Shown here: positions 3,315 through 19,652 of the stretch, one piece after another | How positions within the stretch are numbered: position 1 is the stretch's first letter | How the letters are laid out: every line of letters begins with the position of its first letter | Origin: a virus | Reading direction: 5' to 3' (one strand) | Length of the DNA: 27,205 nucleotides | IMG/VR virus record: IMGVR_UViG_3300027728_000072 | Coordinates: 1 to 27,205 of that record | Translations under genes and position numbers: made by a program | Notes under the pieces: generated by a model | Told to the model about the DNA's origin: nothing | Seen by the model: the letters and a program-made list of their open reading frames with translations, nothing else | Database searches by the model: none

Positions 3315-4244
3315 TTAACAACTCACTGTATGCACAGACGCTAGCTGGCGGGGGTCAGCCAGTGGCGACATCTGAACCATGTATGTACGGATCTTCTTTA
3401 CCGCCTGCTTTTCAAGTTCAGACACCCTAGACCTACTAACACCAATCTTGGCACCTATTTGAGTTAGGGTCATCTGTTCATGCCCCTGCACATGATGCCG
3501 GTGCATGACAATTTCCTGCTCCCTTGGTTCTAACATACCGATAGCGCAATACATTCTCCAATAATCATCAGCATTCAGATCGTCAGAATCAGCATTACTC
3601 TTGGGATCAGCAATCAGGTCTATCAGAGTACTGCCATCCTCCACAATAGAAGCATCTAAAGAACATGGTGTAGCAAGCCTACTCATCAATAACTCCAGTT
3701 CAGCTGGTTTTATATCCATAGAAGCGGCCAGTTCATTACGAGTAGGAGTCCGGTTCAACTCCTTAGTCAAGCGTTCTGCAGCGCCACGCACCTGAGAGAA
3801 TTTCTCTGCTATGTGCAGGGGGGCACGGATTGAAGAATCCAGTTGAGTGATCGCACGAGTGACAGACTGGCGAATCCACCAGTAGGCATAAGTGGAGAAT
3901 TTGTACCCGCGAGTAGCGTCAAACAATTCAACCGCCCGCATCAAACCCAGGCTGCCTTCTTGGACTAAATCCAAGAGAGATAGATGCCTAGCCCTGCCCG
4001 AATAGCTGTGAGCAATTTTAACAACCATTCGCAGGTTAGATGCCACCATTCGCTGCTTAGCACGGTTGCCAACATGAACTAAACGCTGCTCAGATTTAGT
4101 CAAAACCCCCCCAGCACTCTGCCTATTTAGCAGCTCAATTGATTTTTGAATTGACCGCGAAAGCCTAATTTCATCTGAGGCAGTTAGCAGGGGGTGGCGT
4201 GAACACTCCCGCATAAAAGCAGAATACGATGTGTCTTGAGTCAT
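3315..4244 (-). CDS. RNA polymerase sigma-70 factor, cyanobacterial group-2 type
   Basis: 309 aa, ATG at 4242-4244. All conserved sigma regions except 1.1 are visible: region 1.2 (YSAFMRECSRHPLLTASDEI), region 2 with RMVASNLRMVVKIAHSYSG, LDLVQEGSLGLMRAVELFD and YKFSTYAYWWIRQSVTRAI, region 3 (RTPTRNELAASMDI), and region 4 (LEPREQEIVMHRH ... LTQIGAKIGVSRSRVSELEKQA). The length fits group-2 sigma factors. Recognition residues are close to housekeeping sigma, so promoters are likely -35/-10 type such as the one at 15351. It is the last gene of a five-gene minus operon, 12 bp after a zinc-ribbon gene. A full host-type sigma in a phage suggests redirection of host RNA polymerase during early infection or on induction (inference). 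It could also be a cargo gene of host origin. Confidence 0.92.
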   Translation of the reverse strand: MTQDTSYSAFMRECSRHPLLTASDEIRLSRSIQKSIELLNRQSAGGVLTKSEQRLVHVGNRAKQRMVASNLRMVVKIAHSYSGRARHLSLLDLVQEGSLGLMRAVELFDATRGYKFSTYAYWWIRQSVTRAITQLDSSIRAPLHIAEKFSQVRGAAERLTKELNRTPTRNELAASMDIKPAELELLMSRLATPCSLDASIVEDGSTLIDLIADPKSNADSDDLNADDYWRMYCAIGMLEPREQEIVMHRHHVQGHEQMTLTQIGAKIGVSRSRVSELEKQAVKKIRTYMVQMSPLADPRQLASVHTVSC

Positions 4245-14835: not shown

Positions 14836-15285
14836 ATGTCCACCGAGCCCCGTACCACCGACGACTTACTGGCGGACTACGGCAGCACCGATCCAGTAGG
14901 TGATAACGAAGACGACAACATTGCAGAAGTAGATGATACTCCCAAGCGCAGAGTTGCATTCACTGCGATGGAAATAGCCGAGCAAGTTTATCAATGTCAG
15001 AATTGGTTAGCGGAAGGAATACGCCCAAATCTTATTAGGCAGCGGTGCGCAGATAGGTGGGGGTTAGCAACAAGAACCTCTGAGCACAGGATGTCAGCGG
15101 CCCGGCGTCAGATGATCGCAGACATAAATGTTATGGACAGGAGTGAGAAAGTCAGTGAATTAATTGAGAAGTTAGAGACTGTGATTGCCCATGCGATTGA
15201 GAACGGCGCGGGTTCAAATGCGATTGGTGCGATGCGCCTGCAAACAGAGCTGCTGCAGTTGAACAACAAGCACCGCGCCATCTAA
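14836..15285 (+). CDS. Candidate small terminase subunit (TerS-like, HTH)
   Basis: 149 aa, ATG at 14836. An acidic N-terminus (about 1-35) precedes a helix-turn-helix-like segment: QVYQCQNWLAEGIRPNLIRQ, then CADRWGLATRTSEHRMSAAR. The C-terminal part is helical (SELIEKLETVIAHAIENG, AIGAMRLQTELLQLNNK). An N-terminal HTH plus helical oligomerisation core is the general TerS layout, and cyanophage TerS candidates look like this. TerS would recognise the packaging site. It is unusually far (about 3 kb) from TerL. Three 23-bp tandem repeats begin immediately at its stop codon and are candidate binding sites. It could also be a transcription regulator. Confidence 0.6.
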   Translation: MSTEPRTTDDLLADYGSTDPVGDNEDDNIAEVDDTPKRRVAFTAMEIAEQVYQCQNWLAEGIRPNLIRQRCADRWGLATRTSEHRMSAARRQMIADINVMDRSEKVSELIEKLETVIAHAIENGAGSNAIGAMRLQTELLQLNNKHRAI

Positions 15286-15352
15286 AAAACGCATTCAAGC
15301 CTCGCCAAAAACTGCATTCATTAGGCGTCAAAAATCGCATTCATATAGGCTT
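15284..15352. repeat. Three 23-bp tandem repeats (A5-N2-GCATTCA-N9)
   Basis: Units at 15284-15306, 15307-15329 and 15330-15352. Each has an A-run of at least five, two variable bases, the invariant heptamer GCATTCA (15291, 15314, 15337) and nine less conserved bases. The exact 23-bp spacing, about two helical turns, puts all copies on nearly one face of the DNA. The last unit runs into the -35 box of the promoter at 15351. Likely a binding array for an activator, repressor or TerS. Confidence 0.7.
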
Positions 15353-15379
15353 GACACCCCAGCCAACAACGTCTAGGAT
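15351..15379 (+). promoter_or_regulatory. Sigma-70 promoter, TTGACA-17-TAGGAT
   Basis: TTGACA at 15351-15356 matches the -35 consensus fully; TAGGAT at 15374-15379 is a fair -10 with 17-bp spacing. Transcription would start near 15386. It is the clearest promoter in the window. A-tracts in the repeats directly upstream could act as an UP element. Confidence 0.7.
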
Positions 15380-15385
15380 TAGGTT

Positions 15386-15531
15386 GCTTCCGCAGAGGCT
15401 AAGGGGGGACTGGCGTTGAATCTAAGCGCCGCCCCCCGGATTTCCTCCAAGCACAACTACACCCAGTTCTTATTCAGACTTCCACCCCTAGGGTTGAATT
15501 AGCGGGGGCAGTATTCCAGCCCCCCGCTTTT
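15386..15531 (+). ncRNA. Predicted small phage RNA (about 146 nt)
   Basis: A consensus promoter is followed about 150 bp later by an intrinsic terminator, with no credible ORF between. The predicted RNA has a strong hairpin at 15403-15437 (G6, an ACT bulge, GGCG, a loop, CGCC, a bulged G, C6), an open middle with CCCCTAGGG (15485-15493), and the terminator stem. It does not match tRNA, tmRNA or a riboswitch I know. It could be a regulatory or packaging-linked RNA, or an attenuated leader for the short ORF at 15545. Prediction is from sequence only. Confidence 0.5.
15501..15531 (+). terminator. Intrinsic terminator of the small RNA
   Basis: AGCGGGGG (15501-15508) pairs with CCCCCGCT (15521-15528), loop of 12 nt, then TTTT. 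It ends the transcript from the 15351 promoter. Confidence 0.75.
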
Positions 15532-15544
15532 AATCGGTCACATA

Positions 15545-15733
15545 ATGGACGCAAAATCAGCGCCACCCTTAGCGCAGGTCACCGCGCAAGTGCCCGAGCA
15601 GGTCACCGGGCAAGTCAGCGAGCAGGTCGTCCTGGCCATAAAAAAGCCCCCATTGCTGGGGGCGTTAGCGCCAAGATTAAAAGGGGGGGTCGGGTGGTTG
15701 GGTGTATTTGGTGGAGAGGCGGAATTTGGTTAG
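15545..15733 (+). CDS. Doubtful short ORF with 24-bp repeats
   Basis: 62 codons, ATG at 15545, 13 bp after the terminator. Its first half is repetitive (AQVTAQVPEQVTGQVSEQVV) because of an in-frame 24-bp tandem repeat at 15574-15629. The second half is read through the minus-strand terminator and into the 3' end of the minus gene at 15677, and looks non-native (KGGVGWLGVFGG). It may be a decayed gene fragment or no gene at all. Some helicase-like proteins end with similar QV repeats, but this is too short to judge. Confidence 0.22.
   Translation: MDAKSAPPLAQVTAQVPEQVTGQVSEQVVLAIKKPPLLGALAPRLKGGVGWLGVFGGEAEFG
15574..15629. repeat. 24-bp tandem repeat, about 2.3 units
   Basis: Units at 15574-15597 and 15598-15621, differing at a few positions, plus a partial GCAGGTC copy at 15622-15628. 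Each full unit starts GCAGGTCACC and contains GCAAGT. It sits 40 bp after the small-RNA terminator. Confidence 0.6.
15640..15663 (-). terminator. Intrinsic terminator for the minus-strand block
   Basis: Read on the minus strand: GCCCCC (15663-15658), six-base loop, GGGGGC (15651-15646), then six T (15645-15640). It lies 14 bp past the stop of the last gene in the minus-strand block and ends that operon. Confidence 0.8.
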
Positions 15734-16072
15734 GGGGGCGCTAATGGCTCGCCGTAATTGTGCCACCGCTGACAAATGCGCCTTAGTGGCGGTTATGGCC
15801 AGCTTTATCTCACCGGCGGCGATAGATTGGCCAGCAATTAACTCAAGCCTGTGAAGGCTGAGCGAGGCTAGTTGATCTAACTCTACGGGGTTCAAATCTT
15901 CGCATAACTGCAGGGCCGCCAAATTAACATAGCGCCTAGCCTGCCTAAGACTCACCCCGAATTCAGACGATAAAAGGGCCGCGGCGTAAGCCGAGCCCTT
16001 GCCATCATTTAACAAAGCAAGGGCAGCGGCTACCCGCCCCCCCTGTTCTCTATCAGTTGAGCGCCTAGCCAT
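15677..16072 (-). CDS. HTH protein, TerS-like outline
   Basis: 131 aa, ATG at 16070-16072. N-terminal basic segment, then GGRVAAALALLNDGKGSAYA and SEFGVSLRQARRYVNLAAL, a helix-turn-helix-like pair, followed by helices with RLELIAGQSIAAGEIK and THLSAVAQLRRAI-like repeats (KAHLSAVAQLRRAI). The layout is the same as in the TerS candidate at 14836: HTH near the N-terminus then a helical core. It could be a second TerS-type or a regulator derived from one. It is the last gene of the minus block, overlaps the preceding gene by 8 bases and ends just before a strong terminator. The repeats at 15284 lie near its end. Confidence 0.55.
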   Translation of the reverse strand: MARRSTDREQGGRVAAALALLNDGKGSAYAAALLSSEFGVSLRQARRYVNLAALQLCEDLNPVELDQLASLSLHRLELIAGQSIAAGEIKLAITATKAHLSAVAQLRRAISAPLTKFRLSTKYTQPPDPPF

Positions 16073-16787
16073 CTAAATGGCACAACTCACCAATGCGCGA
16101 CCTACTAGCGCCATGCGCCCATATCGCAACATCCGCCGTTGACCCGTCACACAATCCACAGGTCGCACAATTGGTTTTATGGCCACGCTCAGCGGATGCG
16201 GCGCAGTGGACCGTACCGGCCGGGTCCGGCGCGCCTAATGGCAACACTGTGAACGTGTTCCATCCGGCGGCCTTAGCATCGCTTAAATCTTGCAGTGAAT
16301 CGCAGGACGCTTGCACGGTACCTTTTAGCCATGCACCAACGGGCCGGCGCCATTGGTGGGTATATCCCGTGCGAACTACTACGCCTGGCAGGATCGCTTC
16401 CCATATCCACCTAGGCACGGCGGCCGGATCACCGGCACTGCCTATTCTTAAATCACGGCCGGCAAAATCACTAGGCATAGCGGCCGCATAACCGGCGCCA
16501 TGGTGCCAGCAATTCCAAACCGCTAGCGGCGCTTGATACCAGATTACGTAACAAGTTTTGTTGATTTTATGCGGACAATCACCGCATACACTTTCACCCT
16601 CAACGCTTTTAAAAGCTTGATGGGGTGGTATATCGGCGCGCATAATCCACGTTTGAATCATGGCGCCGGTTTTGTCGTTAGCGCTGGAATCGCTAAAGCC
16701 GGTAGCTATAACGACAATAGGCGCGCCGTCTAGCATGGAAGGACCGTGATACAAAACACGGCCGTTTGGGTTGGTAGCTTTAAGCAT
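16065..16787 (-). CDS. Cys-rich conserved phage protein (DUF7227-like)
   Basis: 240 aa, ATG at 16785-16787. Recognisable features: NDKTGAMIQTWIMRADIPPH, then VCGDCPHKINKTCYVIWYQA and PLAVWNCWHHGAGY, GDPAAVPRWIWEAI, TGYTHQWRR and a C-terminal cysteine set (HCAAS ... CATCGLCDG). This set of motifs belongs to a phage protein family common in actinobacteriophages (DUF7227 as I recall); function unknown. Eight or more cysteines suggest one or two metal sites. The gene is dense in GC palindromes (GGCGCC, two GGCGCGCC, one GCGGCCGC), unlike its neighbours, which suggests separate acquisition. It overlaps both neighbours by 8 bases. Confidence 0.7.
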   Translation of the reverse strand: MLKATNPNGRVLYHGPSMLDGAPIVVIATGFSDSSANDKTGAMIQTWIMRADIPPHQAFKSVEGESVCGDCPHKINKTCYVIWYQAPLAVWNCWHHGAGYAAAMPSDFAGRDLRIGSAGDPAAVPRWIWEAILPGVVVRTGYTHQWRRPVGAWLKGTVQASCDSLQDLSDAKAAGWNTFTVLPLGAPDPAGTVHCAASAERGHKTNCATCGLCDGSTADVAIWAHGASRSRIGELCHLDG

Positions 16788-17037
16788 TGGTTTTGTAGGG
16801 ATTAAAAGGGTTAGTTGAATTTGGAAAGTGTTGCCAAACGGGATGTGGTTCTGCAGGTAGCCAATCGGGCCTGATCTGCAAAGCTTGTGGCACGTTATGA
16901 AGTAACCGAAACAGTGAACGGCGGCGCCTTAACACTTCATCCCTAGAATCATCGGCCCATAGTTTGGCTAACAACTTCTCACACTTCATAATCTCAAGCG
17001 CTAAGACTTCAGAACGGGTAACAGATAATTTTTGCAT
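16780..17037 (-). CDS. Hypothetical helical protein (85 aa)
   Basis: ATG at 17035-17037. The N-terminal half is a charged helix (SEVLALEIMKCEKLLAKLWA, then DEVLRRRRSLFRLLHNVP), the C-terminal half is proline/asparagine-rich (NSTNPFNPYKTN). Overlaps the Cys-rich gene by 8 bases and follows its upstream neighbour by 2 bases. No family recognised. Confidence 0.5.
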   Translation of the reverse strand: MQKLSVTRSEVLALEIMKCEKLLAKLWADDSRDEVLRRRRSLFRLLHNVPQALQIRPDWLPAEPHPVWQHFPNSTNPFNPYKTNA

Positions 17038-17039
17038 GA

Positions 17040-17288
17040 TTAAATAGTGTTTAGATCAAAATCGCCGCCGCTTAATTTGGTAGCGCTGATATACCAGCCA
17101 TGGAAATTAGCTGTTTCGTTATCAGACCATGGGCGCGCTTTGCAACGCATGGCACGGTATGAGTCGGGATGGCTCGCATGCTCAAACCAAACTGATTTTG
17201 TGGTTCTTTTAATGCAGCGAACAGGAAAGTCGCCATGGGCGCATGAAAGCGCGCCGTAATAGGTTTGGCCTACAGTGAAGGTAATCAC
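17040..17288 (-). CDS. Small beta-rich phage protein (82 aa)
   Basis: Begins MITFTVGQTYYGALSCAHGD, then FPVRCIKRTTKSVWFE and a YRAMRCKARPWSDNETANFH region with ISATKL. The 'F.vG.tY....D....f.v..Rt.k.v.f' outline is a common small phage/plasmid protein pattern, probably a beta barrel-like fold; function unknown. It overlaps its upstream neighbour by four bases (ATGA) and is followed by the 85-aa gene after 2 bp. Confidence 0.55.
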   Translation of the reverse strand: MITFTVGQTYYGALSCAHGDFPVRCIKRTTKSVWFEHASHPDSYRAMRCKARPWSDNETANFHGWYISATKLSGGDFDLNTI

Positions 17289-17485
17289 AGCGCCACCCCC
17301 TGCAATGCTTCAAAGCGCTCAACTGCCTCAATGGTGTAGCACTGCAGCTCGTTAAATCCTTCAAACTCTGCGATCACATCGCCGCAGGCATCAACCAGCT
17401 GGTAAACAGTGCACCTGTCCTCTGCAATGGTGCAAATAGTGCAATGGGTAGATTCTTCTAATCTGTGGCGGTAGTCGTGTTTCAT
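17285..17485 (-). CDS. Hypothetical protein with Cys pairs (66 aa)
   Basis: ATG at 17483-17485. Contains THCTICTIAEDRCTVYQLVD and a second half (FEGFNELQCYTIEAVERFEA). CTIC followed by further Cys and His might bind metal, but no known site is matched. A (TG)8 dinucleotide run (17489-17504) lies right before the start, in the place of a leader. Confidence 0.5.
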   Translation of the reverse strand: MKHDYRHRLEESTHCTICTIAEDRCTVYQLVDACGDVIAEFEGFNELQCYTIEAVERFEALQGVAL

Positions 17486-17814: not shown

Positions 17815-18227
17815 TTGAGAGAATCCGCAGGGGGTGATTGAGGGAGCCGGCGCCAATGGCGCAGCGGCAAACAAAGGGCGAAAATTCCTTCCCTCGATTC
17901 GATTCTAGCTAGGCAGGGTGAGAAAGTCAACAAACCCAACCCCTAAATCCGCCCCAATTCGCAGCCCGTGCAGGCCCCCCCCGGCCAGGGTCCCGCGTAT
18001 CTGTCATAGCCACAGGTACTCATGCCAAACCCGTTGCAGTGCAGCGCATCTCGCCCGTCCACAGTCCAAACCACCCCCAGGCCAGCCACCCCAGCCACCA
18101 CCCCACCCCCACCCCAATGAGGTACTAATGTACTCATCTACCCTCCCCTTCCCACTTGCAACACCCCCCATAATTGACCCTCCCTACCTAGGTACTGCAC
18201 AATTCTTAACAAAAAGCCCCTTACAGG
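17815..18227. other. C-rich gap before TerL with operator-like palindrome
   Basis: Apart from the doubtful minus ORF at 17943-18137, about 410 bases lack clear genes. The plus strand is strongly C-rich at 17970-18120. It holds a G-quadruplex-type pattern on the minus strand (C-runs at 18089-18092, 18101-18104, 18106-18110, 18112-18115). Further right are TTGACC (18174-18179) and CACAAT (18198-18203), a weak -35/-10 pair with 18-bp spacing, and a perfect TACCTAGGTA (18185-18194) between them. This is probably the divergent regulatory region for the minus block and the late operon. Confidence 0.45.
17943..18137 (-). CDS. Doubtful 64-aa ORF in C-rich gap
   Basis: ATG at 18135-18137. The product starts MSTLVPHWGGGGVVAGVAGL, then has Cys-containing segments (LHCNGFGMSTCGYDRYAGPW, CTGCELGRI). 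The Gly/Val-rich start comes from the G-rich minus strand of a strongly C-skewed region, which can create such ORFs by chance. The later part looks more protein-like, and it would extend the minus block upstream, so it cannot be dismissed. Confidence 0.3.
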   Translation of the reverse strand: MSTLVPHWGGGGVVAGVAGLGVVWTVDGRDALHCNGFGMSTCGYDRYAGPWPGGACTGCELGRI

Positions 18228-19652
18228 TTGCCCCACCCCCGCTATGTCCATCCGCCCCCAATTGAGTACCCTATCTACATATGTACGTCAGCTATTCCAG
18301 TGGGAGTCCTCGGAATTGTGCCAGGCGGAAAATGTCTAGACGCGCCCATTGCAGTCAGCACCCGATGCACAACGACGTACACCGAGCTCCGCACCCGAAT
18401 CTACGAAACTCTTCTACCTCACCAGCGTGAATTTGTTGACGACACTGATCATTTAATCTTGGGTTTATGCGCAGGTTTTGGAGCGGGCAAGACCTGGGCT
18501 CTAGCCGCCAAGTGCGTATTCCTTGCGATGGACAACCCGAACACTGTTGGTGCAGTATTCGAGCCAACATTCCAGATGGTGTTGGACGTATGGGTTAGAA
18601 GCTTTGATGAATTTCTGGAGCGATTTGCGATTGACTTTGACTACCGTGCCAGCCCCCAGCCGGAGTACATCCTGCACCTGCCGCACGGCCCCTGCACATT
18701 GCTATGCCGAACATTAGAGAGCGTAAACCGAATCCGAGGCACGAACCTTGCGTTCACTTTATGCGATGAAATCGACACATCTAAGTATGAATTAGCGCAA
18801 AAGGGCAGTGAGATGATTTTGGCCCGACTACGTGGCGGCAAGAAGCCTCAATTTGCGATGGCTTCAACGCCAGAAGGCTACGGCTTCATGTGGAACACAT
18901 TCGATCAAAAAGCCGGCCCAGACCGCCATTTAATCCGGGCCAAAACAGTAGACAACCCCTACCTCCCCCCTGGCTTCATCGACTCGCTATATGCGAACTA
19001 CCCACCCCAGCTACTAGCCGCTTACCTGCAGGGCCAATTCACCGCCCTAGACAAAACAACGGTCTACTCATATTTCGACCGAGACGTTCACTGGAGTGAT
19101 GAAGAAGTCCGTGCGGAGGACACGATTTATGTAGGTCTGGACTTCAACGTCGGCACCTGTTTCATGGAAGTATGTGTAAGGCGTGGGGACATATTCCACT
19201 TTGTTGCAGAACACGTTGCAAAGGACACGCCAACAATCACGGCCCGACTCAAGGACTTATACCCAACGCACATCGACCGAGGGTTGTTGACAGTTGTGCC
19301 AGATGCCGCGAGCAAACACCGCACCACAACGAACGCAAGTGAAAGCGACCTAGCAATCCTGAAGCGCAGCGGAGTGCGGATCAAAGTATCAAACAGCAAC
19401 CCGCTCGTCGAAGACCGCGTAAACGCAGTCCAAGTCCTCCTCCTAAACAACCGCCTGCGCCTCCACCCCAGCTGTAAGTATTTAATCCGCGCCTTCGAGA
19501 CGCAGACCTACAACAGCAAGGGCACCCCGGACAAAAGCGGTAGCGGCCTTGACGACAAGAGCGGCCCGGTGGATGCCGCCGGCTACGTCCTCCACTCCCT
19601 GGCGGGCTTACGCCGCTACCAAACAGGCGGCAGCAACTTCGAGTTCAAGTAG
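18228..19652 (+). CDS. terL: Terminase large subunit
   Basis: The longest frame starts at TTG 18228 (474 aa), but its first 45 or so residues look non-native; GTG at 18300 or 18318 are in frame and more likely starts, because homology begins at about YTELRTRIYETLLPHQREF. ATPase: Walker A GLCAGFGAGKTWALAAK, Walker B TLCDEID, and MASTPEGYGFMWNTF as the coupling motif. Nuclease: YVGLDFNVGT (first Asp), VVPDAASKH (second) and GPVDAAGYVLHSL (third). It is the packaging motor that cuts and pumps DNA into the portal. Portal follows 35 bp later. The TerS candidate lies 3 kb upstream with a reversed block in between. Confidence 0.93.
   Translation: MPHPRYVHPPPIEYPIYICTSAIPVGVLGIVPGGKCLDAPIAVSTRCTTTYTELRTRIYETLLPHQREFVDDTDHLILGLCAGFGAGKTWALAAKCVFLAMDNPNTVGAVFEPTFQMVLDVWVRSFDEFLERFAIDFDYRASPQPEYILHLPHGPCTLLCRTLESVNRIRGTNLAFTLCDEIDTSKYELAQKGSEMILARLRGGKKPQFAMASTPEGYGFMWNTFDQKAGPDRHLIRAKTVDNPYLPPGFIDSLYANYPPQLLAAYLQGQFTALDKTTVYSYFDRDVHWSDEEVRAEDTIYVGLDFNVGTCFMEVCVRRGDIFHFVAEHVAKDTPTITARLKDLYPTHIDRGLLTVVPDAASKHRTTTNASESDLAILKRSGVRIKVSNSNPLVEDRVNAVQVLLLNNRLRLHPSCKYLIRAFETQTYNSKGTPDKSGSGLDDKSGPVDAAGYVLHSLAGLRRYQTGGSNFEFK

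Follow-up and report, generated by a model that had tools for sequence, protein, structure and literature searches.

The pR'-6S leader of phage lambda, which is subject to Q antitermination, is composed of a promoter, a short untranslated leader and an intrinsic terminator, with the late genes beyond. The put RNA of phage HK022 is about 70 nt long and forms two stem-loops, and putL lies just downstream of PL (PMC9378689). In SPP1, the pac site is next to the TerS gene and contains direct repeats as well as promoters (PMC4737164). Mycobacterial prophages provide examples of phage origins that are based on RNA (PMC7157519). Here we compare with these systems a locus of an uncultured phage, in which an array of direct repeats, a promoter and a structured RNA follow one another. 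We tentatively regard this locus as a composite of two separable cis elements: a promoter with a put-type leader RNA, and a CATTCA array that would serve as a packaging or replication site.

The window, that is, the whole stretch of DNA analysed, is a virus record of 27,205 bases from IMG/VR. It codes for a sigma-70-type factor, a PolA-type DNA polymerase, a serine recombinase, a primase-like protein, an exonuclease and the terminase large subunit (TerL). The sigma-70-type factor gene is on the minus strand (3315-4244), and the annotation of KBS-S-2A has one at a similar place. The closest isolates by TerL, with about 43% identity, are the cyanophages KBS-S-2A, MED4-184/MED4-117 and S-H1. The phage is therefore called cyanosiphovirus-like, and a cyanobacterial host is presumed. 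The DNA of the window showed only chance-level similarity to isolated phages, the tRNA scan gave nothing, and a TerL search of GTDB genome contigs gave no prophage. Relatives were collected with three kinds of query (proteins, the array pattern and the hairpin pattern), and all of the RNA-bearing ones are metagenomic contigs. Clades were assigned by similarity rather than from a tree, and sequences of the same clade are not independent.

The promoter consists of the -35 element TTGACA (15351-15356, + strand) and the -10 element TAGGAT (15374-15379, + strand) with a spacer of 17 nt, just as proposed in an earlier sequence-only reading. TTGACA or a close variant is found in the window (W), L002, L003, L054, L121, L203 and L092, and is weak or absent elsewhere. 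The -10 box keeps the form TAnnnT, with T1, A2 and T6 invariant across 12 aligned relatives. Taken by itself, a promoter match of such quality is no more than chance would give (1 found against 1.2 expected). The 151-nt stretch alone likewise has only a modest fold energy (z = -1.9), and fold energies overall are only moderately low (z from -1.6 to -2.8). Therefore, the case for the locus rests on comparison.

Thirteen loci share a common order: the -10 box, exactly 6 nt, G(+1), a 5-bp hairpin, a 3-nt linker and a GC-rich second hairpin. In the window, hairpin 1 (GCUUC-CGCA-GAGGC, 15386-15399, + strand) begins exactly at the predicted +1, 6 nt after the -10 box as in all 13 loci; it was missing from the sequence-only reading. 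It is connected by the linker UAA (15400-15402, + strand; 3 nt in 13/13 loci with the arms as placed) to hairpin 2 (15403-15437, + strand), which had been recognised in that reading. The tail GGAUUUCCUCC (15438-15448, + strand) follows. A GGAUUUYCUCC tail is located 3' of the hairpins in most loci, in the form GG(A/C)UUUYCUCC in most members of the W and L034 clades, and is absent from L203, L208 and L092. In the minimum-energy fold of the window, GAGG pairs with the CCUC of the tail instead, so that the drawn hairpin 1 is absent from that structure. Promoter and hairpins stay in L003 and L004 although the DNA downstream is replaced. The two-hairpin module is absent from more distant relatives.

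Compensatory changes, which had been predicted for hairpin 2, were found in both hairpins on comparison of the relatives. Placing the arms of the 13 loci by eye gives 95 paired base-pair cells out of 99, with compensatory changes at 9 of the 11 pairs. None of 5000 column shuffles of these by-eye arms was equally well paired; the observed number of pair types was reached in 13 of 5000 and that of compensatory pairs in 4 of 5000. Since this placement relies on the eye, the covariance model R1, which was built from seven L034-clade sequences only and searched against 603 kb, provides a stronger test than these counts. R1 matches the window, a member of another clade, at 15374-15452 with an E value of 2.9e-5, and this match includes hairpin 2. 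It also matches L003, L054 (E 1.3e-4) and L004 (E 0.0096), and L203 only at E 0.95. L208 and L092 were not matched by the models and were included from reading of the sequence. The MAFFT alignment A4 misplaced hairpin 2 by one base between clades, and for this reason pairs were counted on the by-eye arms and on the model alignment A7. In A7, which is fitted to the structure, 98.2% of cells pair, compared with 35-64% in slid controls; its pairs with double changes are less decisive, since 27 of 500 shuffles reach the observed number.

The Rfam scan of the window gave no family match at the gathering score, in line with the earlier statement that the RNA fits no nameable class. To judge from these searches, neither the two-hairpin RNA nor the CATTCA array seems to match a described family. 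The closest anatomical counterpart is HK022 put (PMC9378689): in both, two stem-loops adjoin each other within about 55-70 nt directly behind a promoter; putL opens a phage transcript, as the RNA of the window is predicted to do. However, the hosts are different, and the window has no same-strand operon directly downstream. Moreover, the covariance model R2 found no match in the HK022 genome at E ≤ 10; thus, the likeness is one of anatomy only, and membership is not claimed. The window locus also has the same series as lambda pR'-6S, namely promoter, short untranslated leader, intrinsic terminator and late genes further on. In contrast to lambda, about 2.8 kb with opposite-strand genes separates this leader from the late genes, a Q-type gene was not identified, and the terminator is not conserved.

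Upstream of the promoter, the CATTCA array occupies 15284-15343 (+ strand). Its three copies with a 23-bp period and an invariant GCATTCA were confirmed at 15291, 15314 and 15337. In dinucleotide shuffles, three GCATTCA within 60 nt did not occur in any of 300, and an equally spaced triple of any 7-mer did not occur in any of 60. The array is conserved in relatives as CATTCA preceded by an A-rich stretch (composition from 134 units), and recurs in W-type phages and many further ones. Many of these phages do not have the promoter and hairpins, and the array is much more widespread than the two-hairpin RNA. Copy number varies, and the spacing of the repeats is irregular (9-52 bp). The strict triple pattern is present in 15 of 20 records searched whole, at one clustered place each, and the reversed control pattern in none. 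Many further matches to array patterns were judged by eye to be coding sequence or simple tandem repeats and were excluded. The array is absent from the isolates KBS-S-2A, MED4-184 and S-H1. A search of genomes with the array pattern gave 11 scattered matches, none carrying a TerL-profile match, and a literature search of titles and abstracts on GCATTCA and phage repeats gave nothing relevant.

Among the readings of the array, a pac or cos recognition site bound by TerS, with the promoter beside it by happenstance, deserves serious consideration, although we hold it to be somewhat short of probable. Wherever both are on one fetched piece, the non-coding array is on the TerL strand with TerL 1.2-4.7 kb downstream, as a single direct-repeat site per searched genome; the sole exception is L253, whose array and TerL match are both doubtful. 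The gene directly upstream in the window (14836-15285, + strand) codes for a 149-aa HTH protein, which is probably TerS, as judged from its homologues in L018, L028 and L062 that adjoin TerL. In phages of the W type and of the L249/L252 type, the array follows directly on the end of a TerS-like gene (uncharacterised in the latter); the TerS-like gene is one gene further upstream in phages of the L117/L079 type, where phrog_6299 matches. The SPP1 pac is a precedent for repeats and promoters by a TerS gene (PMC4737164). In contrast to the SPP1/SF6 pac, the repeats here are 3' of the TerS-like gene, vary in number and spacing, and recur with different TerS types. One motif would need to be read by different TerS families. 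Furthermore, in the L018/L028/L062 type, TerS adjoins TerL, whereas the array is kilobases away, after the exonuclease module, and the cos site could be a different inverted repeat a short way upstream of TerL.

This inverted repeat, GCGTAYCTGT...ACAGGTACGC, is found upstream of TerL in the window (about 17990-18290) and in L004, L023, L034 and L128, alongside the motif TACCCTATNTAYATA (18267 in the window). Together they are a possible cos site or late promoter.

On the other side of the locus, a 131-aa HTH protein is encoded convergently (15677-16072, - strand), with a terminator predicted at 15646-15663 (- strand). The two flanking proteins belong to one profile family and are mutual paralogues. 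The earlier view that both look like TerS holds as far as this paralogy, and the probable TerS identity of the 149-aa protein derives from position with no family match: the 149-aa protein had no confident Pfam or PHROG match and no significant Foldseek match, the 131-aa protein had no match in isolated phages, and PDB fold searches with both proteins gave nothing significant (the 149-aa protein versus G20C TerS, E 1.2).

Several short motifs accompany the intergenic region. The tandem motif GGACAYAA-TTA-GGACAYAAA immediately precedes the convergent gene's terminator and is kept in most relatives (L003 5745-5764, L004 5987-6006, L034 4676-4695). The window has a degenerate copy (15536-15556, + strand); better copies are in L003, L004, L023, L028, L034, L092 and L128, and others were seen by eye. 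A Fur-box-like palindrome, TGAGAATCRTTNTCA, is present downstream of the array in the same intergenic region of L034, L023, L121, L128, L138, L145, L151, L018, L024 and L099. Another palindrome, CGCTAC-NN-GTAGCG, is downstream of the array in L182, L183, L184, L187, L191, L213 and L121, mostly phages without the two-hairpin RNA. At 15574-15621, a short tandem repeat of 12-nt GCAGGTCACCGN-like units is within a 62-aa ORF (15545-15733); it is shorter in L002.

The RNA itself had been taken for a small-RNA gene. A trans-acting regulatory RNA of about 146 nt, with a stabilising hairpin at its 5' end and the terminator at 15531 as its 3' boundary, seems rather unlikely. It would have its own promoter, and a hairpin at the extreme 5' end would favour RNA stability. 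The stretch had been noted to have no ORF, and no + strand ORF is conserved; the intrinsic terminator is indeed present at 15502-15531 (+ strand). However, this terminator is found only in the window and in its near-identical relative L002. No comparable + strand terminator occurs within 700 nt behind the hairpins in L003, L004, L054, L034, L023, L128, L151, L145 or L203. In L004 the single terminator match is at +613, and in L138 a marginal one coincides with hairpin 2 itself; the scan of L121 covered only 302 nt. Even a relative with 94% identity has other sequence in place of the 3' half of the locus. Of the small-RNA claim, the promoter, the predicted RNA and the hairpin stand as real and conserved, and a discrete terminated RNA is predicted only for the window and L002. 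The conserved unit is therefore the promoter with its 5' leader, not a fixed RNA of about 146 nt.

A replication origin, in which the CATTCA repeats would be iterons and the structured RNA the origin transcript or primer, is considered unlikely. The neighbours of the array in phages of the L117/L250/L016 type are AT-rich DNA and an abutting winged-helix gene that resembles RepL or an initiator (best match phrog_270, 6e-5, in L016; others weaker); each searched genome has at most one array locus. An RNA-based origin also has its precedent in mycobacterial prophages (PMC7157519). The direct repeats, and in some relatives the nearby initiator-like gene and AT-rich DNA, resemble iteron origins of the lambda O type and of RepA plasmids. 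In the window, however, the array has neither an adjacent initiator gene, the neighbour in the W type being TerS-like, nor an AT-rich stretch, as the lowest-GC regions include none beside it. The GC skew is uninformative and marks no origin, and the irregular spacing of the repeats also argues against this reading.

It is comparably improbable that a phage regulator, for example the flanking HTH protein, binds the array and thereby activates or represses the promoter. The array is immediately upstream of the promoter in the window. Nine of 15 loci place the last repeat 27-32 nt before the -10 box; the distances elsewhere are 5, 37, 51, 81 or 93 nt. Since the array occurs without promoter and hairpins and its distance to the -10 box varies, the repeats are not simply the operator of the promoter. 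The array looks like a packaging or replication site instead; of the roles suggested earlier, packaging may apply to it. Two further candidates were rejected: a genome-wide operator, as the array is at one locus only per searched genome, and a translated leader peptide, as no ORF is conserved. The probabilities of the remaining readings overlap, because the array and the RNA may have separate functions.

According to the composite reading, a sigma-70-type promoter would start a rightward transcript at 15386, which would fold at once into the two adjoining hairpins. The 5' leader would act in cis on the elongating RNA polymerase, as a put-type antitermination or anti-pausing leader. A put RNA suppresses termination without the help of a protein, by way of the zinc-binding domain of the beta' subunit. 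The modified polymerase would not stop at the terminator at 15531 but would continue across the opposite-strand genes in the direction of TerL and the late block at 18228; with unmodified polymerase, the transcript would end as a short RNA. The array would form a second, separate cis site, bound by a putative protein and used in DNA packaging or in the initiation of replication. The leader part of this model is favoured by the 13-locus geometry, the covariation, the R1 matches, the replaced downstream DNA, and the lack of a conserved ORF or terminator downstream. The main objections are that several kilobases separate the promoter from TerL, with opposite-strand genes from 15677 to 17485, and that TerL is directly preceded by other conserved sequence, in which a promoter of its own or a cos site may lie. 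The failure of R2 to match HK022, the moderate fold energies, the absence of hairpin 1 from the minimum-energy fold of the window, and the lack of the module in more distant relatives also weigh against it. A bolder proposal, that a protein-independent put-type leader arose in cyanobacterial phages at a packaging or replication site and couples late or antisense transcription to that site, is doubtful.

The two-hairpin RNA is a predicted, structured phage leader that is supported by covariation across clades, absent from Rfam, and has an exact predicted start. Should it modify RNA polymerase, RNA-only antitermination would gain a further natural example, in a bacterial phylum different from that of HK022. 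For a broad set of uncultured phages, the CATTCA array would offer a candidate site of packaging or replication.
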